Below, in pieces: positions 17,334 through 38,210 of a stretch of 41,657 nt of DNA. Source of the stretch: Pseudomonadota bacterium (lineage in GTDB: Bacteria > Pseudomonadota > Gammaproteobacteria > Xanthomonadales > Rhodanobacteraceae); the NCBI GenBank assembly GCA_021805685.1, contig JAJZET010000213.1:1-41657 (forward strand), read 5' to 3'. The stretch's first letter is position 1, and every line of letters begins with the position of its first letter. The position numbers and the translations under genes are program-made. Under the pieces are notes generated by a model. It saw only the letters and a program-made list of their open reading frames with translations. It was not told where the DNA came from and ran no database searches.

Positions 17334-19352
17334 TCAGGCTGCCTTGACGCGCCGCCCCAACCGCACCACGCCGCCCACGTCGACGATCAACGCCACCGAG
17401 CCGTCGCTGACGATGGTGGCACCGGATACGCCCTGCACCCGCTCGTAATGCTTCTCCAGCGACTTGATCACCGCCTGCTGCTGGCCGAGTAGTTCGTCCA
17501 CCAGCAAGCCCACGCGCTGACCCTCGTCCTCGACCACCACCACGATGCCGCGCTCGATCTCGGCGATCGCATCCGTGCAGCCGAAGGCGCGGTGCAGGCG
17601 GATGATCGGCAGGTATTCGCCACGGAACTGGAACACCTCGCCGCCACCGGCAATCCTGCGCACCGTATCGGCGCCGAGGCGCAGCGACTCCACGATGGAG
17701 ATCAACGGCACGATGTAGCGCTCCTCGCCCACCGCGGTGACCAGGCCATCGATGATCGCCAGCGTCAACGGCAACGCGATGGTGAACACGCTGCCCTTAC
17801 CGGCCACGCTCTTCACGCCCACGGTGCCGCCGAGGTCGCGCACGTTGCGGCGCACGACGTCCATGCCCACGCCGCGGCCGGAAAGGTCGGTGGCGACTGC
17901 CGCGGTGGAGAAGCCGGGCTGGAATATCAGCTCGGCCACCTCGTCATCGCTGAGCTGCTGGCCGGCCGGAACCAGGCCACGCTCGACGGCCTTGGCCAGG
18001 ATGCGCTCGCGGTTGAGGCCGGCGCCGTCGTCGCTGATGCGTACCACGATGTTGCCGCCTTCGTGGTGGGCGTCCAGGGTGAGCGTGCCGGTCTCCGGCT
18101 TGCCCGCGGCGCGGCGCTGTTCCGGCACCTCCAGGCCGTGGTCGATCGCGTTGCGCACCAGGTGCACCATCGGGTCGCCGATCTTCTCGAGCACGGTCTT
18201 GTCCAGCTCGGTCTGCTCGCCCTGCAGCTCCAGCCTGACCTGTTTGCCCAGCTTGCGCTCGAGGTCGCGCACCAGGCGCGGGAAACGGTTGAACACCGAA
18301 CCGATCGGCAGCATGCGTATGCGCATCACGCTGTCCTGCAGCTCGCGCGTGTTGCGCTCGAGCTGCGCCAGCCCTTCGCGCAGGCGCTCCAGCTGCGACA
18401 CGTCGAAATTGGTGCCGATGTCGTTGAGCATGGATTGGGTGATGACCAGCTCGCCCATCATGTCGATCAGCGCATCGACCTTGTCGATGCCGACGCGGAT
18501 CGAACCGCCATCGGCAGGACCGGAGGCCGATCCCTCGCGCGCACCAGCCGGCGCCGCAGCTGGCACGGCCGTTGATGCGGCAACGGCGGGAGCGGCCGCG
18601 GCAGGCACGGGAGCCGGCGCGGCGGCCTCTTGCGGCGCGGCCAGCGCTGTGATGGCGAGCTCGCAGTCGCCGTCCAGCCATTCGAATACGGCGTCGAGAT
18701 CGGCACGCGCCACCGCTCCGTGCAGGCGCAGCTCCCAGCCCAGGTAGCACTGGCCGGGATCGATCGCGGCGAACTCCGCGGGCGCGGCATCGGTGATGAA
18801 GGCGCGCAGCACCTCCAGCCGGCCGAGCTGCTGCAGTTCGCGGAACAGGCGCAGCGGCTCGTTGCCGGTCTGCAGCAGGTGCGGCATCGCGACGAAACGG
18901 ATGTCCCAGCCCGCCACCGCCGCTGACTTGGGTTTGCTCGCCACGGCCACCGCGGCGACTTCGCCTTCGACCAATTGCGCCAGTTCGACGCGCAGCGACT
19001 CGCTGGTGGCATCGGCGGCAGGCAGGCCTTGCGCGGTGCGGTCGAGCATCGCGCGCATGCAGTCGACCGATCGCAGCAGCAGGTCGGTCAGGGCGGCGTC
19101 CACCACCCGGCGCTCGCTGCGCACCTCCTCCAGCAGCGACTCGGCCACGTGGGTGAACGCGGCCACGTCGGCAAAGCCGAACGTCGCCGCGCCGCCCTTG
19201 ATGGAATGCGCCGCGCGGAAAATGGTGTGCACCAGCTCGTGGTCGGTCGAACCCGAGTCCAGCGCCAGCAGCGCGGCCTCCATGGCGTCGAGGCCTTCCA
19301 GGCTTTCCTCGAAGAAGGTCTTGTGGAACTGAGTCAGGTCGACCGCGGCCAT
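17334..19352 (-). CDS. cheA: CheA histidine kinase of the second chemosensory locus
   Basis: A 672-residue sensor kinase. P1 (HPt) with phospho-His at about residue 49 in FRAAHSIKGGAATFG; a P2-like response-regulator-binding domain at about 155-240; an Ala/Pro linker; P3 dimerisation (IRVGIDKVDALIDMMGELVI); P4 kinase with N-box HLVRNAIDHGLEVPEQR, G1 SDDGAGLN and G2 DLSGRGVGMDVVRRNV; and P5 CheW-like at the end. All catalytic motifs are intact. It sits in order STAS-cheY-cheA-MCP and is probably driven by the sigma-28 promoter at 20114-20140. Confidence 0.97.
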   Translation of the reverse strand: MAAVDLTQFHKTFFEESLEGLDAMEAALLALDSGSTDHELVHTIFRAAHSIKGGAATFGFADVAAFTHVAESLLEEVRSERRVVDAALTDLLLRSVDCMRAMLDRTAQGLPAADATSESLRVELAQLVEGEVAAVAVASKPKSAAVAGWDIRFVAMPHLLQTGNEPLRLFRELQQLGRLEVLRAFITDAAPAEFAAIDPGQCYLGWELRLHGAVARADLDAVFEWLDGDCELAITALAAPQEAAAPAPVPAAAAPAVAASTAVPAAAPAGAREGSASGPADGGSIRVGIDKVDALIDMMGELVITQSMLNDIGTNFDVSQLERLREGLAQLERNTRELQDSVMRIRMLPIGSVFNRFPRLVRDLERKLGKQVRLELQGEQTELDKTVLEKIGDPMVHLVRNAIDHGLEVPEQRRAAGKPETGTLTLDAHHEGGNIVVRISDDGAGLNRERILAKAVERGLVPAGQQLSDDEVAELIFQPGFSTAAVATDLSGRGVGMDVVRRNVRDLGGTVGVKSVAGKGSVFTIALPLTLAIIDGLVTAVGEERYIVPLISIVESLRLGADTVRRIAGGGEVFQFRGEYLPIIRLHRAFGCTDAIAEIERGIVVVVEDEGQRVGLLVDELLGQQQAVIKSLEKHYERVQGVSGATIVSDGSVALIVDVGGVVRLGRRVKAA

Positions 19353-21655: not shown

Positions 21656-22003
21656 TCAGGTCGGCGCGCGCATGGCGACGATCAGCTTCGCCTCGTCGCT
21701 GGACAACCCGCAGCACGCCACCAGCTGCTCCGCATCGGCGCCCTCGCGTGCCAGCTGCTTGGCCAGCTCCCACGAACGATCGGGCAGCAGCGGCCGCTCC
21801 ACCTGGCCGAGCTTGCGTTCGACGCGCCCCAAGGCGGTCACGAGCATCGAGGTGGGCACGTCCGTGCTGGTACCCGCCGCGTTCTGCCACAGTGCATCGA
21901 CGCGCCGCTGCAGGCGGCGCGACTGCCGCCACATGAGCACCAGCAAAACGCTTTGGCCCACTGCCACCAGCAGCAGGGCGAGCATGCCCAGCTCAAGCCA
22001 CAT
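21656..22003 (-). CDS. DUF2802 family protein
   Basis: A 115-residue membrane-anchored protein. N-terminal helix LELGMLALLLVAVGQSVLLV, then a charged helix RRLQRRVDALWQ and a C-terminal helix-turn segment (LAKQLAREGADAEQLVACCG, LSSDEAKLIVAM) that resembles a small helix-turn-helix. It is the usual gene after cheW in polar-flagellum clusters of Pseudomonas and relatives; function unknown. ATG 22003 is chosen with GGAG nine bases upstream; a GTG two codons earlier is possible. It overlaps the end of cheW by 11 bases. It is convergent with the FlhB-like gene. Confidence 0.85.
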   Translation of the reverse strand: MWLELGMLALLLVAVGQSVLLVLMWRQSRRLQRRVDALWQNAAGTSTDVPTSMLVTALGRVERKLGQVERPLLPDRSWELAKQLAREGADAEQLVACCGLSSDEAKLIVAMRAPT

Positions 22004-22475
22004 GGTCACCGTCTCCGTTCAGGCGGTACAGGCGGCGCGCGTCGAGCAACACCACGAAGCCATCGCGCCAAGGCAACACGCCACTGACCGGATCGTCGTC
22101 ACGCTCCAGCCTGCCCGGCGGCGGCGGCGCGATTTCCAGGCCCTCGCTGTCTAGCAACTCGCCGACCGCGTCGACCTTCAGCCCAAGCGCCTGCCCCGCA
22201 TGCGACAGCAGCACGATGCGCACGCCGAGCGGATCGGCCTCGGGCTGCGCAGGCAGTCCGAGCCGGCGACGCCCGTCCATCACCGGCACGATGTGGCCAC
22301 GCAGGTGCCGCACGCCGAGCAGGTCGGTAGCGGACCCCGGCACCGGGGTGAGTTCGTCGTCGCGGATCACTTCGCTGACATCGGAGAGTCGCGCGGCATA
22401 CAGTTGCGCGCCGATGCGGAAGGTCAGCCAGTGGCGATCCTCGTCCGGATGGCGCTGCAGGGCAGGTGTGTTCAT
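21993..22475 (-). CDS. cheW: CheW coupling protein of the flagellar-linked locus
   Basis: A 160-residue CheW domain: WLTFRIGAQLYAARLSDVSE, then TDLLGVRHLRGHIVPVMDGR and LGLKVDAVGELLDSEGLEI. The HLRG motif takes the place of NLRG. The ATG at 22475 overlaps the motD stop as ATGA. In Pseudomonas the same position is preceded by a ParA-like gene and a second CheW-like (ParP) gene; both are missing here. Confidence 0.95.
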   Translation of the reverse strand: MNTPALQRHPDEDRHWLTFRIGAQLYAARLSDVSEVIRDDELTPVPGSATDLLGVRHLRGHIVPVMDGRRRLGLPAQPEADPLGVRIVLLSHAGQALGLKVDAVGELLDSEGLEIAPPPPGRLERDDDPVSGVLPWRDGFVVLLDARRLYRLNGDGDHVA

Positions 22476-23536
22476 TGAACGTCCTTGGCATGCGGTTCGG
22501 CGCCAGGCACGGCGCCCATCGAGGCAGCCGATGCCGGCGTCACTGTGGCGGTAGGCAGCGTCTGGGTGGCGGTCGCCTGTGGCCGGCGCGCGGTATCCGC
22601 GGGCACCGGCGAGGTCGAGCGCAGCACCTGCACGGCCGGCACGCTGTCCGCCGGCGCGGTTGCCGATGCAGCGGCGGCCATGCCGGCCTGGCGGTCGATA
22701 TGGCCGACGTCGCTCTGCGAACGCTGCGGCGCCGAGCCTTCGCCCATCACCACCACCAGGATGCGGCGATTGGCATTGCGGCCGGCCGCGGTGCTGTTGT
22801 CGGCGACCGGATGCGTCTCGCCCCAGCCGACGATGCCCAGCCGGTCCTGGGCGATGCCGCCATCCATGAACAGGCGCGCCACGCTGGCCGCACGCGCCGC
22901 AGAGAGCTCCCAGTTCGAAGGGAACTGCGGAGTGCTGATCGGCACGTTGTCGGTGAAGCCCTCGATGCGTAGCGGATTGTTGAAACGGGAGAGCACGTCC
23001 GCCAGGTTGTGCAACACGGCTTGCGCCTTGGTGGACAACTGCGCCACGCCGCTGGGGAACAGGATGTCGGTGCGTATCTCGATTTCCAGCCACTGCTGCT
23101 TGTTGCTCACCATCACCTGCTTGCTGTCGATCAGCGGCTGCAGCGCCTTGCGCACCTCGGACTCGATGCGCTTGAGCGTGTCCTTGCCGGAACCGGCGCC
23201 GATATTGCGCCCGTCGCCGCCCTGCAGCGCGACGGGGTGACGCGGGATCGGCACGGACACCACCGCCACGGCACCCGCCTTGCCTTCCGGCGAAGCGATG
23301 GTCGGGTCGATGTTGTGCGGCTTCACCTTGGTGGCCGGCAGCGGCGCAATGGCGTGGCTGGAGCCGTTGAATGCCTCGATCATCGATTCGGAGAGCACCT
23401 TGTACTTGCCCGCATTGACCACCGAGACGGCGTACATCACCACGAAGAAGGCCAGCAGCAGCGTGATCAGGTCCGCGTAGGGGATGGCCCAGGCTTCGTG
23501 GTTCAGGTGCTCTTCGTGCTTGTGCTTGCGGCTCAC
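22472..23536 (-). CDS. motD: Flagellar stator protein MotD (MotB family)
   Basis: A 354-residue stator subunit that anchors the motor to peptidoglycan. N-terminal helix YADLITLLLAFFVVMYAVSV with the proton-binding Asp22 (E. coli MotB Asp32), a plug/linker, then the OmpA-like peptidoglycan-binding domain (LRIEGFTDNVPIS, SNWELSAARAASVARLFMD). The last 80 or so residues are Ala/Pro/Thr-rich and look disordered, beyond what MotB needs. GTG start at 23536 overlaps the motC stop as GTGA. Confidence 0.95.
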   Translation of the reverse strand: MSRKHKHEEHLNHEAWAIPYADLITLLLAFFVVMYAVSVVNAGKYKVLSESMIEAFNGSSHAIAPLPATKVKPHNIDPTIASPEGKAGAVAVVSVPIPRHPVALQGGDGRNIGAGSGKDTLKRIESEVRKALQPLIDSKQVMVSNKQQWLEIEIRTDILFPSGVAQLSTKAQAVLHNLADVLSRFNNPLRIEGFTDNVPISTPQFPSNWELSAARAASVARLFMDGGIAQDRLGIVGWGETHPVADNSTAAGRNANRRILVVVMGEGSAPQRSQSDVGHIDRQAGMAAAASATAPADSVPAVQVLRSTSPVPADTARRPQATATQTLPTATVTPASAASMGAVPGAEPHAKDVQ

Positions 23537-24273
23537 GACACGTAGCCCTGCAGGCGCGCCTCGATCTGGCGCGGATTGTCGCCCTGGGCGATCGACACCA
23601 GTCCCTCAATCAGGATCTCGTGCATCCGGGTCTGCTTGTGGACCATGCTTTTCAGTCGCGCCGCCATCGGCAGCATGAACAGGTTGGCCAGGCCCACACC
23701 ATAGATGGTGGACACGAAGGCGGCGGCGATGCCGTGGCCCAGCTTGCTGGGGTCGGCCAGGTTCTGCATCACCGCCATCAGCCCCATCACCGCGCCGAGA
23801 ATGCCCATGGTGGGCGAGAAGATGCCCGCGCTTTCGAACACCTTGGCGCCCGCCAGGTCGATCGCCTCGCGGGTTTCCAGCTCGACCTCCATCACGCTGC
23901 GGATCGCCTCCGGTTCGCCACCGTCGACCAGCAGCTGCAGGCCCTTGCTGATGAACGGATCGGACTCGGCTTCGATCTGCGGCTCCAGCCCCAGCAGGCC
24001 CTGCCGGCGCGAGATCTCGCTCCAGCCCACCACCCGGCTGATCAGGTCGGCGGGGCGGTGCTGCGGCGGCCGGTAGACCATCTTCACCATCTTCAGGGCG
24101 TGCTTGAGCACGCCGCCGTGGTTCTGCAGCAACAGCGCCGAGGTGGTGCCGAAAATCACGATCACGAACGCGCCGTCGTTCCACAGCGCGTCGACGGTGG
24201 ATCCCTTGAGGATGGTGCCGATGATGAGCACCAGGAAGGCCAGTACCGTGCCGATGATGCTGATCAGATCCAT
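23533..24273 (-). CDS. motC: Flagellar stator protein MotC (MotA family)
   Basis: A 246-residue, four-helix stator subunit that works with MotD as a proton channel. ATG 24273 (MDLISIIGTVLAFLVLIIGT) is favoured over an upstream in-frame start that would run into cheA. The cytoplasmic loop keeps charged residues in ISRRQGLLGLEPQIE for FliG contact, and the conserved PTMGILGAVMGLMAV segment carries the channel proline. The length equals Pseudomonas MotC. It follows cheA by 10 bases. No motA/motB pair is visible here. Confidence 0.95.
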   Translation of the reverse strand: MDLISIIGTVLAFLVLIIGTILKGSTVDALWNDGAFVIVIFGTTSALLLQNHGGVLKHALKMVKMVYRPPQHRPADLISRVVGWSEISRRQGLLGLEPQIEAESDPFISKGLQLLVDGGEPEAIRSVMEVELETREAIDLAGAKVFESAGIFSPTMGILGAVMGLMAVMQNLADPSKLGHGIAAAFVSTIYGVGLANLFMLPMAARLKSMVHKQTRMHEILIEGLVSIAQGDNPRQIEARLQGYVS

Positions 24274-24283
24274 GAGCAGGCTC

Positions 24284-26185
24284 TCAACCGGTCTGTGCCA
24301 GGGGAACGACGGATTTCGCGGCACGTTCGGCCAGGCCGGCCAGGTCCATCACCAGCGCCAGCCGGCCGTCGCCGGTGACGGTGGCGCCGGCCACACCGGG
24401 CACGCCGGCGAACAGGTGGCCGAGCGGCTTGACGATGACGTCTTCGCGGCCGAGCACCTCGTGTACCAGGCTGCCCAGCCGCTGGTGGCCGATGTGCAGC
24501 ACGGCCACGTGACGCGTCGTTTCCGCTGCCACACCGGCCCAGGCGACCATGTCCACCAGCGGCAGCGCACGGCCGCGGTGGCGCGCCACCAGGCGGCCGT
24601 CCAGCAGGCTGTCCTGGCCCGGGTCCAGCTCGAAAACCTCTTCGACGTTGCCCAGCGGCAAGGCCAGCAGGCGGTTGCCCACGCGCACCATCAGCACGCG
24701 CACCACCGCCAGCGTCAGCGGCACGGCCAGCTCCAGCTCGCTGCCGTGGCCCAGGCGCGAATGCACCGCGAGCGTGCCGCCCAGCTCGGTGATGCGGGTC
24801 TTCACCACGTCCATGCCCACGCCGCGGCCGGAAATGTCCGACACGGTGGCGGCGGTGGAGAAGCCGGGGCGGAAGATCAGCTCGTAGCACTCGGTTTCGG
24901 ACAACCGCGCGGCCTGCGCCGCGTCGATCACGCCCTTCTCCACCGCCTTGCGCTTGAGGATCTCCGGGTCCATGCCGCGGCCGTCGTCGGACACGGTGAT
25001 GACGATGCGCTCACCCCGCTGGCTGGCCGCCAGCACCACGCGACCCTTGCGCGGCTTGCCGGCGCGCTCGCGGTCGGCCGGCTGCTCCACGCCGTGGTCC
25101 AGCGCGTTGCGCAAAAGGTGGATCAGCGGATCGGCCAGTGCTTCGACCAGGCTGCGGTCGAGGTCGGTGCCCTCGCCTTCCAGCACCAGCTCGACCTCCT
25201 TGCCCAACTGGCGGGCAAGGTCGCGCACGATGCGCGGGAAGCGCTGGAACAGGCGCCCCACCGGCTGCATGCGCATGCCCATCACCGCGCCCTGCAACTC
25301 GTCAGTGATGCGATCCAGCTCGCCGGCGGCAGCGGCCAGTGCTTCACTGCCCTGGCGCGCAGCGAGGCTGAGCAGGCGGTTGCGCGCCAGCACCAGTTCG
25401 CCGGCGTGGTTGACCAGCAGGTCCAGCCGCGAAGTGTCCACGCGCACCGTGGTCTCGGCGGCGGGCGCCGCAGCGGCCGGTCGCGGAGCGGGCGCCGCGG
25501 CCGGCGCAGGAGCAGCAACCGGCGCAGGTGGCGGCGCGGTGGTGTCGGGCTGGCCGGCCTTGCCGTGCAGCGTGTCCAGCAGCGCCTCGAATTCGTCGTC
25601 GTCGATGGTTCCGGCGGAGGCGGATGCGGGCGCCGTGGCGACCGGTACCGCAGCTGGCTCGATGGTGCCCGGCGCAGCGGTGCCGTAGAGGCTGTCGAGC
25701 AACGCTTCGAACTCGCTATCGTCGATGGCGCCGCCGCCCGCGTCGGCAGCCGGCGCCGCCACCGGAAGCGGCGCGGGCGCAGGGGCTGGCACGGGAGCGG
25801 CCCCGCCGCGTGGCAACAGCGCCTTGAGCAGTTCGGGGGGCGGCATCGCCAGCGGCTCGCCGGCGGCCAGCGCGGCCATCATTTCGACCAGCCGGTCCAG
25901 CGTCTGCAGCAGCGCATCCATGTAGCTGGCATCGAGGGTGACGGTGCCGTTGCGTGCCTGGTTGAGCAGGTCCTCGGCGTTGTGGCACAGCTGCACCATC
26001 GGCTCCAGCGCCAGGAAGCCGGCACCGCCCTTCACGGTGTGGAAGGCGCGGAACACGGCGTTGAGCAGCTCGCCGTCGCCCGGCGCCGCTTCCAGTCCCA
26101 CCAGCTGTTCACCCAGGCGCTCGACGAGCTCGCCCGCTTCGACCAGGAAGTCCTGGCGCAGCTCGTTGTCGAAATCCGCGTTCAC
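24284..26185 (-). CDS. cheA: CheA histidine kinase of the flagellar-linked locus
   Basis: A 633-residue kinase, GTG start at 26185. P1 HPt with His49 (FRAFHTVKGGAGFLA), P3 at about 255 on (VDTSRLDLLVNHAGELVLAR), P4 with HLLRNALDHGVEQP, SDDGRGMD and DISGRGVGMDVV, and P5 CheW-like. The region where P2 should be (about 125-250) has no folded domain: it is Ala/Pro-rich and carries two copies of a short helix motif, IDDSEFEALLDSLYG (154-168) and IDDDEFEALLDTLHG (194-208), spaced exactly 40 residues. The copies resemble the CheY-binding N-terminus of FliM (LSQDEIDALLDG), so they probably dock CheY. cheZ precedes it. Confidence 0.97.
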   Translation of the reverse strand: MNADFDNELRQDFLVEAGELVERLGEQLVGLEAAPGDGELLNAVFRAFHTVKGGAGFLALEPMVQLCHNAEDLLNQARNGTVTLDASYMDALLQTLDRLVEMMAALAAGEPLAMPPPELLKALLPRGGAAPVPAPAPAPLPVAAPAADAGGGAIDDSEFEALLDSLYGTAAPGTIEPAAVPVATAPASASAGTIDDDEFEALLDTLHGKAGQPDTTAPPPAPVAAPAPAAAPAPRPAAAAPAAETTVRVDTSRLDLLVNHAGELVLARNRLLSLAARQGSEALAAAAGELDRITDELQGAVMGMRMQPVGRLFQRFPRIVRDLARQLGKEVELVLEGEGTDLDRSLVEALADPLIHLLRNALDHGVEQPADRERAGKPRKGRVVLAASQRGERIVITVSDDGRGMDPEILKRKAVEKGVIDAAQAARLSETECYELIFRPGFSTAATVSDISGRGVGMDVVKTRITELGGTLAVHSRLGHGSELELAVPLTLAVVRVLMVRVGNRLLALPLGNVEEVFELDPGQDSLLDGRLVARHRGRALPLVDMVAWAGVAAETTRHVAVLHIGHQRLGSLVHEVLGREDVIVKPLGHLFAGVPGVAGATVTGDGRLALVMDLAGLAERAAKSVVPLAQTG

Positions 26186-26199
26186 TGCGCCGGAGCCCC

Positions 26200-26841
26200 T
26201 TAGAAACCGAATTCGCTGAGCAGCCGGTCGGCGTCCTCCTGACTGGTGACCTTGGCCACGTCGACCGGGGCCTCGGCGCCAGCCAGTGCGCCGGTGAGAC
26301 GCACCAGTTCCAGCAATGAGGTCTCGACCGTGCCGATGAAGGCGGACACCTTCTTGATGCGCTGGCCGGAGAGATCCTGCCAGGACTGCGCCACCACCAT
26401 GTCGGCGAGGCCGGTACGGCAGGTTTCGGCGAAACCGCCGGCGTCGCGGGCGAAGCCGGCGACCAGTTCGTCGCCGCTCGCGCGCTTGAGCACGTCGTCG
26501 GCGCGCTGCGCCAGCGCATCGGCCTGCGGCCGTATGCGCTCGGCGAAGTCGATGCTGCGGTTGGCGGCGTTCGCGCTCATTTCCAGCACGTCCTGCAGGT
26601 GCTGGCGCGCATCGGCCACGATGCCGGGCACGCCTTCCTGCGCCAGCTCGCCGCCGAGGCGGCGCACGGCGTCGTGCAGTTCGCGGGCCAGCTGGCCCAG
26701 CGCACGGAACAGGTGTTGCTCGCGCTGGCGCACCATGGTGTCCAGCGCGTGCTCGAAGGCGGGACCTTCCGGGCTGTTCAGCAGGTCGCGCAGTTCGGAC
26801 GGCAGGCTCTCGTCGCTCGCGAGGGGAATCAGGGTACTCAT
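26200..26841 (-). CDS. cheZ: CheZ CheY-P phosphatase
   Basis: A 213-residue, all-helical phosphatase (E. coli 214). Active-site helix [15 protein letters not shown] carries Asp156 and Gln160, matching E. coli Asp143 and Gln147. The C-terminus [13 protein letters not shown] fits the CheY-binding peptide of CheZ (ending LGF in E. coli), joined by a Thr/Ala-rich linker. The ATG at 26841 overlaps the cheY stop as ATGA. A longer open frame upstream runs through cheY and is not real. Confidence 0.96.
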
Positions 26842-27233
26842 GCTTTGGCTCCGCTGGCGGCGATTCGCTCGAAGATCTTGGTCAGCTTCTCCTGCAAGGT
26901 GGCCGCGGTGAAAGGTTTGACCACGTAGCCGTTCACGCCGGCCTGGGCGGCGGCGATGATCTGGTCGCGGTTGTTCTCGGCCGTGACCATCAGCACGGGC
27001 AGCCCCTTGAGCGAGGGCTCGGCACGAATCGCGCGCAGCAGGTCGATGCCGGTCATGTTCGGCATGTTCCAGTCGGTGACCACCAGGTCGAACGGCTGGG
27101 CGCGCAGCATGGTGAGCGCGTTGTTGCCGTCGTCGGCCTCCTGGATCAGGGTGTTGGTGAAGCCAAGCTCCACCAGCAGGTTCCTGACGATGCGCCGCAT
27201 GGTGGAAAAGTCGTCCACCACCAGGATTTTCAT
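26838..27233 (-). CDS. cheY: CheY response regulator of the flagellar-linked locus
   Basis: A 131-residue receiver that binds FliM to change rotation. Starting at ATG 27233 ([20 protein letters not shown]) it aligns closely with E. coli and Pseudomonas CheY; a TTG four codons upstream is an alternative. Phospho-acceptor Asp54 in [19 protein letters not shown] switch region and [13 protein letters not shown] at the end. It follows fliA by 60 bases with no clear promoter between. Confidence 0.97.
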
Positions 27234-36846: not shown

Positions 36847-37197
36847 TCACCTCAGCTTGCGCACGCGCTCGGCCGGGCTGATCACGTCGGTCAGGCGGAT
36901 GCCGAACTTCTCGTTGATCACCACCACCTCGCCATGCGCGACCAGGGTGCCGTTGACGAACACGTCCAGCGGTTCGCCGGCGGCGCGATCCAGTTCCACC
37001 ACCGAACCCTGGTTCAGCTGCAGCAGGTTGCGGATGCTGATGCGGGTGCGGCCGACCTCCATCGCCAGGGTCACCGGCACATCGAGGATCATGTCGAGAT
37101 TGACTTCGCCGGTGCCGGCAGGCGCGCCGCCGCGCAGCGAATCGAATTCGACGCGTTCGCTGGCGTTCTCGGCCATCGCTTCAGTGGACTGGTTCAT
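36847..37197 (-). CDS. fliN: Flagellar switch protein FliN
   Basis: A 116-residue C-ring protein. N-terminal acidic, flexible part (MNQSTEAMAENASERVEFDS), then one SpoA/SURF domain: DVPVTLAMEVGRTRISIRNL, LNQGSVVELDRAAGEPLDVF and GEVVVINEKFGIRLTDVISP. The ATG at 37197 overlaps the fliM stop as ATGA. Confidence 0.97.
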   Translation of the reverse strand: MNQSTEAMAENASERVEFDSLRGGAPAGTGEVNLDMILDVPVTLAMEVGRTRISIRNLLQLNQGSVVELDRAAGEPLDVFVNGTLVAHGEVVVINEKFGIRLTDVISPAERVRKLR

Positions 37198-38210
37198 GCG
37201 TTTTCTTCTCGGCTGAGCGGGTCGACGGCGGTGCGCAGCTCGCGCCGGCCGACCTGGGTATGGAAACGGATCGCATTGCGGCCGTTGGCCTGGCCGTAAC
37301 GGGCGCGGAACAGCGGCACGTCCTCGGCGTACACGGTGGACAGTTCGGGCAACTGGATCGGCAGGACGTCGCCGGGGCGAAGCCGCAGGAAGTCGCCCAG
37401 GGTGATCTCGATGTCGAGCAGTTCCGTGCTGAGCGGCACTTCGGCATCGAGCACTTCCTCGCGCAGCATCTCGGCCCAGCGGTCGTCGCGGTCGACGCGA
37501 TCGCTTTGCACGCCCGCATCGAGCAGGGTGCGGATCGGCTCGACCATCGCGTAGGGCATGGTGAGGTGGATCTCGCCGCCGCCGCCGTCGAGTTCGATGT
37601 GGAAGCGCGAGACCACCACCGTCTCGGTGGGGCTGACGATGTTGGCGAATTGCGGGTTGATCTCCGAGCTCTGGTACTCGAAGTTCAGCCCCAGCACCGG
37701 CGCCCACGCCTCCGCCATCGCGGTGAACAGTTCGGCCAGCAGGATCTGGATCACGCGGTTTTCGGTGGCGGTGAAGTCGCGGCCCTCGATGCGCGCGTGG
37801 AAGCGGCCGTCGCCGCCGAAGAAGTTGTCGATCACGCTGAACACCAGGCGTGGTTCGAATACCACCAGCGCGGTACCGCGCAGCGGCTTGATCTTCACCA
37901 GGTTCAGGTTGGTGGGCACCACCAGCCCGTGCACGTACTCGGCGAACTTCACCATCTTCACGCCCAGCACCGAAACCTCGCAGGTCTTGCGCAGCACGCT
38001 GAACAGGCCGGTGCGGAAATAGCGCGCGAAGCGGTCGTTGACCATCTCCAGCGTCGGCAGGCGACCGCGCACGATCCGATCCTGCTGGGTGAAGTCGTAA
38101 GACAACACCGCATCGCGCGGCAGCGGCTGGTCGCTGCCGGTTTCCACCGCGCCGTCGGTCACGCCGTCGAGCAGCGCGTCGATTTCGTCCTGGGAAAGCA
38201 GGTCGCTCAT
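37194..38210 (-). CDS. fliM: Flagellar switch protein FliM
   Basis: A 338-residue C-ring protein. N-terminal CheY-binding peptide MSDLLSQDEIDALLDG, the middle domain with YSFDFTQQ-like segment (SYDFTQQDRIVRGRLPTLEM) and GGDGRFHARIEGRDFTATEN, and the C-terminal SpoA domain (LDIEITLGDFLRLRPGDVLP). The fli-linked CheA carries two peptides that resemble its N-terminus. It follows fliL by 16 bases. Confidence 0.98.
   Translation of the reverse strand: MSDLLSQDEIDALLDGVTDGAVETGSDQPLPRDAVLSYDFTQQDRIVRGRLPTLEMVNDRFARYFRTGLFSVLRKTCEVSVLGVKMVKFAEYVHGLVVPTNLNLVKIKPLRGTALVVFEPRLVFSVIDNFFGGDGRFHARIEGRDFTATENRVIQILLAELFTAMAEAWAPVLGLNFEYQSSEINPQFANIVSPTETVVVSRFHIELDGGGGEIHLTMPYAMVEPIRTLLDAGVQSDRVDRDDRWAEMLREEVLDAEVPLSTELLDIEITLGDFLRLRPGDVLPIQLPELSTVYAEDVPLFRARYGQANGRNAIRFHTQVGRRELRTAVDPLSREENA

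Follow-up and report, generated by a model that had tools for sequence, protein, structure and literature searches.

The CheA kinase encoded in the fliA-linked cluster carries no P2 domain. Instead, the flexible linker where P2 is usually found holds two copies of a short acidic motif that resembles the N terminus of FliM, and the motif recurs in every readable linker of a large clade of related kinases. Judged from their sequences, these motifs probably serve as a multivalent linear element that would dock CheY in place of P2. CheAs without P2 were already known: according to a 2023 survey of CheA architecture, over half of CheAs lack the domain and have an unstructured stretch there, and P2 was remarked to be dispensable (PMC10782961). 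Here, one large P2-less group proves to keep a short motif within the unstructured stretch, which makes the way in which such a kinase finds CheY directly testable. FliM does not occur in the main text of that survey. A full-text search of a literature collection with few subscription papers found neither a description of the motif nor its letters.

Two predicted FliM-like helices lie in the linker of a CheA without P2

The window, that is, the whole stretch of 41,657 nucleotides analyzed here, covers a flagellar and chemotaxis region. We take its minus-strand products to be, in order, FlhA, FlhF, FleN, FliA, CheY, CheZ, CheA, MotC, MotD, and a CheW-like protein, some of these names being assigned from the sequence. 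The features are as follows.

24284..26185, minus strand: cheA, 633 aa, of the F6 type, with cheY and cheZ upstream (translation, Pfam, clade placement)
25886..26164, minus strand: P1/Hpt domain, CheA residues 8-100 (Pfam PF01627, E 2.8e-17)
25436..25819, minus strand: Ala/Pro-rich linker, CheA residues 123-250, at the usual place of P2
25682..25726, minus strand: FliM-like motif copy 1, IDDSEFEALLDSLYG, residues 154-168 (profile score 38.7)
25562..25606, minus strand: FliM-like motif copy 2, IDDDEFEALLDTLHG, residues 194-208 (profile score 45.9)
24323..25453, minus strand: CheA P3, P4, and P5 (dimerisation, kinase, CheW-like; Pfam)
26838..27233, minus strand: cheY, 131 aa, with V103, N104, Q117, and K119 in E. 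coli numbering (its top matches in the PDB are CheY chains)
26200..26841, minus strand: cheZ, 213 aa (1kmi_Z match over query residues 43-178, E 8.8e-10)
37194-38210: FliM gene (Pfam FliM match)
38163..38198, minus strand: FliM residues 5-16, LSQDEIDALLDG
17334..19352, minus strand: second CheA, 672 aa, lacking the motif
18633..18914, minus strand: predicted P2-like fold in the second CheA, at residues 147-240

The earlier note on this DNA had read two FliM-like peptides, set 40 residues from each other within a linker rich in Ala and Pro, and the translation bears this out; the N-terminal letters of FliM and the C-terminal letters of CheZ that it quoted are likewise present in the window. Its claim that the fliA-linked CheA has no folded P2 also held. 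Pfam recognized Hpt, H-kinase_dim, HATPase_c, and CheW above their cut-offs, while no P2 or CheY-binding family matched the protein up to E = 1; SHOCT, scoring 17.1 bits against a cut-off of 27, matched below threshold on motif copy 2. In an AlphaFold2 model run with 19 relatives, residues 128-254 were mostly below pLDDT 50 except for two helices, 156-166 and 196-206. These helices are the motif copies, and their ten-residue block means reached pLDDT 50-57 with no partner present. A search of the linker against the PDB returned two matches only (E 0.65 and 0.83), and no folded domain was found between P1 and P3.

As a positive control, we folded the second CheA by the same method with its own 19 relatives. 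The model showed strands and helices at residues 148-236, within a domain spanning about 147-240 (block-mean pLDDT 58-84), in agreement with the claim that this protein keeps a P2-like fold. The solved CheA P1-P2 chain 2lp4 ranked 34th among the 50 Foldseek matches listed for the second CheA, over 253 columns, and was absent from the 50 listed for the fliA-linked CheA. The domain is thus a probable P2 by alignment length and by the order of its strands and helices, the match list giving no aligned range.

The motif is shared by a clade of F6-type CheAs

We collected CheA proteins by searching 140 genomes of this class and scanning named genomes, the latter giving 80 loci that were kept, and built a tree of the P3-P5 core of 130 proteins. 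The window CheA fell into a clade of 88 members (local support 0.84), which include Dyella, Stenotrophomonas, Pseudomonas, Stutzerimonas, Marinobacter, Shewanella, Alteromonas, Vibrio, Photobacterium, Moritella, Allochromatium, and Thioalkalivibrio. Its P3-P5 core groups with kinases from cheY-cheZ-cheA flagellar clusters, and cheY and cheZ lie upstream of it, as expected of an F6-type CheA; the name F6 is borrowed from PMC7184735 and assigned here by tree grouping rather than by a class model.

The suggestion that related gammaproteobacteria might share the peptides proved right. The motif was present in all 84 readable clade linkers, counted with a profile made from these same sequences and controlled by shuffles and a later sample. 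Its consensus is I[TS]DDEFEALLDxLHG (favored letters I-[TS]-D-D-E-F-[ED]-A-L-L-D-x-L-H-G), where the T or S with an E three residues later would fit a helix capping box. Linkers carried one to four copies: one in 7, two in 27, three in 40, and four in 10. Four of the 88 members were left out of the count, as they had no P1 anchor; two were truncated CheAs with three and one copies, and two had none in the 50-64 residues remaining before P3. The exact spacing of 40 residues in the window is not special, since 139 spacings measured in the clade had a median of 41 and lay between 29 and 73 residues.

A second sample, 199 genomes drawn from the phylum, yielded 28 high scorers (at least 746 bits), all from the same class, while the other rows listed reached at most 561 bits. 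The search profile includes motif columns, so that this gap and the motif are not wholly separate evidence. Twenty-seven were complete through P1, and each of these had two to four copies, with at least 4 of the 27 genomes also in the first sample; the 28th, which had no P1 and stood outside this count, had two. Outside the clade, the motif was found in 2 of 42 CheAs, those of loci L108 (Acidithiobacillus) and L020. A further CheA outside the clade, from L224, carried it as well, and L132 (Tibeticola) had a degenerate form.

Two loci deserve separate mention. A contig whose title names a Klebsiella pneumoniae metagenome-assembled genome (L074) encodes a CheA of the clade, with matches to ParC and MotD downstream, and is probably mis-binned or misnamed. 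In genome G031, locus L179 has cheY-cheZ-cheA, parC, parP, and cheW beside flgE, with a split cheB and a CheA bearing three motif copies. No FliM match was found in this genome; the absence looks like gene loss but is not decisive.

The motif resembles the CheY-binding peptide of FliM

We scanned the 328 six-frame open reading frames of the window with a profile of the 11-residue motif core, from which the window sequence had been excluded. CheA ranked first and the N terminus of FliM second (16.9 bits), the next frame scoring 11.4. FliM was also the first-ranking frame in 29 of 30 loci containing FliM, the window among them, although these loci comprise just 18-40 frames each; in the remaining locus, L174, it ranked second. 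CheZ came tenth of 328 in the window, matched at its C-terminal end. Across 50 CheZ loci, this end was the top-scoring part of CheZ in 19, which makes for a weak test.

In FliM and FliY, EIDALL is described as the motif that binds phosphorylated CheY in the groove between α4 and α5 (PMC9126983), and a CheY-bound C-ring structure is reported to place the α4-β5-α5 face against the N-terminal region of FliM (PMC11528121). The CheA motif shares with these peptides a hydrophobic-[ST]-x-D-E-hydrophobic-[DE]-A-L-L core in a short acidic helix, both window copies reading EFEALL. It differs in having Phe for the Ile of FliM and a conserved D-x-L-H-G tail, and it is repeated one to four times inside a flexible linker of the kinase rather than placed at the N terminus of a C-ring protein of the motor, so that the likeness concerns only how the motif would work.

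The C-terminal helix of CheZ seen in 1kmi, which we take to bind CheY, offers a second parallel. CheZ ends such as GQDEVDDLLSSLGF share D-E-x-[DE]-x-L-L-x-x-L with the CheA motif; in contrast, the CheZ helix is single-copy and C-terminal and matches the profile less well than FliM does. The proposal that the copies replace P2 by mimicking FliM is upheld in part: P2 is absent and the peptides are FliM-like, whereas "mimicking" is a statement about origin that goes beyond the data, convergence being as likely an origin as mimicry.

CheY residues differ between motif-bearing and motif-less loci

CheY positions are given in E. coli numbering, set by anchors, with 5 of 87 CheYs that had no anchor pattern left out. 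Among 72 CheYs encoded beside clade CheAs, V103 and N104 were each found in 71, and position 117 was K in 62 and R in 2; the window CheY, unlike most, carries Q117. The CheYs beside eight motif-less betaproteobacterial CheAs all had A103 and S104, with D, A, S, G, or N at 117. The CheYs of L108, L020, L224, and L132, all outside the clade, had V103, N104, and K or R at 117. Position 94 was Q in 70 of the 72 and N in the eight betaproteobacterial CheYs, but N was also found in L108, L224, and L132.

In PMC7184735, a CheY taken over by an F7 CheA is described as changed at the P2-facing positions 92, 94, and 103 and at 117, which lies on the FliM-contacting helix, and its authors placed the changed residues on E. 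coli CheY with P1 and P2. Residues on the FliM-binding face of CheY differ between the motif groups, which fits the docking reading but may reflect FliM or CheZ instead. The difference may also be a single clade split, since the motif-less comparison set is one clade of eight loci (support 0.999).

The linker motifs would dock CheY in several weak sites

In the model that we favor, the linker between P1 and P3 would be a flexible tether bearing a pair of short acidic helices of the EIDALL type known from FliM. Each helix would bind the α4-β5-α5 groove of CheY in the fashion of the FliM N terminus, holding CheY near the phosphohistidine of P1 and raising its local concentration. The copies would thereby do the docking of the missing P2, with one to four per chain, two chains per dimer, and many dimers per array, so that several weak sites would stand in for one domain. 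The motifs lie at the same place between P1 and P3 as the P2 domain described in PMC10782961 and presumably do the same job, yet they are linear motifs and form no folded domain. We infer that they would bind CheY at this site, speed phosphotransfer, and compete with FliM and CheZ. An affinity of 27 µM is quoted for a FliM peptide and activated CheY in PMC9126983, which suggests that single sites are weak and that several copies would be of use. Deletion of P2 in E. coli, as recounted in PMC10782961, slowed phosphotransfer and impaired chemotaxis, while P2 was not essential and an extra Hpt compensated; a replacement for P2 therefore need not exist.

Activated CheY, according to PMC9126983, binds the FliM N terminus better, which is odd for a dock that receives the substrate. 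It would suit a motif that, instead of docking unphosphorylated CheY, mainly holds the product, phosphorylated CheY, at the array and competes with FliM and CheZ, and the closeness of the CheA motif to that of FliM points the same way. Such holding would delay the signal on its way to the motor unless binding were weak (the value quoted for the FliM peptide is 27 µM), and we regard this explanation as possible but doubtful. A preference of the motif for CheY or for its phosphorylated form would separate a substrate dock from a product sink.

On the reading that we prefer, substrate docking in place of P2, a single CheY binding code should be common to kinase, motor, and phosphatase in many gammaproteobacteria. 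More tentatively, F6 CheAs in gammaproteobacteria such as Pseudomonas, Vibrio, and Shewanella might carry a multivalent set of motor-mimicking EIDALL-type peptides that bind phosphorylated CheY as well as CheY; the array would then be both source and sink, rivaling FliM and CheZ, and copy number (one to four) would help to set the motor threshold.

The motif occurs in genomes where no ParC ortholog was found

The linker motif could instead be all or part of the CheA localisation and inheritance domain (LID), whose partner at the cell pole is the AIF domain of ParP. As described in PMC5706961 and PMC7534058, this domain binds ParP, sits between P2 and P3, and is said to be limited to CheAs accompanied by ParC and ParP. 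The motif resembles the Vibrio LID in lying before P3 in CheAs of polar flagellates. Where at least 4.6 kb of sequence followed a motif-bearing cheA (54 loci), a downstream ParC match was present in 43. The other 11 loci had none, and a genome-wide search left 9 of these 11 genomes, that of the window included, with no ParC match above 140 bits, although some of the nine are incomplete (the genome of the window is 87% complete) and ParP was sought downstream of cheA only. Three controls in this search scored 278-308 bits, the weakest neighboring ParC scored 186 with the same query, and the two remaining genomes had ParC elsewhere (218 and 243 bits). A motif bound to ParC and ParP as a LID was rejected, since the motif occurs in nine genomes, some of them incomplete, where no ParC ortholog was found; from sequence, a ParP-binding role appears unlikely.

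Several observations concern the same gene neighborhood. Unlike Pseudomonas loci, the window has no ParC, ParP, or CheB match beside the fliA-linked cheA (21993-24284), and array placement may work another way in this genome. Open reading frames at the ParP position of some loci start with a similar peptide: ALDDYFEALLDDLGD in a 197 aa frame of L090 (position 19), ALDDYF in a 482 aa frame of L107, and ALQSYLDALLQE in the ParP of the Pseudomonas locus L084 (11907-12767). ParP may thus carry a related helix.

Other partners and chance resemblance

Acidic helices are common, and the likeness to FliM might be a generic by-product of a helix that binds another partner, such as CheB, CheZ, FliN, or the kinase core of CheA itself, and modulates array output. 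P2 has been described as docking CheB besides CheY (PMC11978298). However, FliM outranked the other frames in nearly all of the small loci scanned, and the motif is kept in the window even though the best CheB match lies ~13.7 kb downstream of the fliA-linked cheA, not adjoining it. We consider a partner other than CheY improbable.

Codon comparisons across eight species pairs provided a measure of constraint on the motif. Amino acid–changing codons numbered 22 of 390 in the motifs, 451 of 1433 elsewhere in the linker, 60 of 880 in P1, and 184 of 2950 in P3-P5, where the motif positions had been picked by their conserved pattern, which biases them toward low change, and some species entered two pairs. 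Synonymous change was similar throughout (34% in the motifs, 31% in the rest of the linker, 27% in P1, and 31% in P3-P5). With few changed residues at a similar level of synonymous change, the motif is as constrained as the folded domains, while the linker around it drifts. Between the two copies in the window, 6 of 15 aligned codons were identical, 6 synonymous, and 3 non-synonymous, and this synonymous divergence indicates that their likeness is kept at the protein level. Despite the Ala/Pro-rich surroundings, a low-complexity linker whose segments are alike by chance or recent duplication can be dismissed: none of 1680 shuffled linkers (20 per linker) matched the motif, the best reaching −6 against a threshold of 12, which rules out chance, and the synonymous divergence between copies together with the strong constraint rules out recent duplication.

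Linker peptides in other CheA groups

The eight betaproteobacterial sister CheAs without the motif (L109, L111, L113, L114, L116, L118, L125, and L128) show no obvious P2 by eye. Their linkers share a short D-W-x-x-[LM] peptide, which in most cases ends in TG, and are mostly RR-rich before P3; a different linear docking element is possible there, as far as sequence can tell. Three Campylobacterota CheAs (L098, L100, and L103) have the linker peptide [ML]-S-x-x-x-V-E-A-E-I-x-R-L-L, which is faintly EIDALL-like and occurs twice in L100, a Sulfuricurvum locus.
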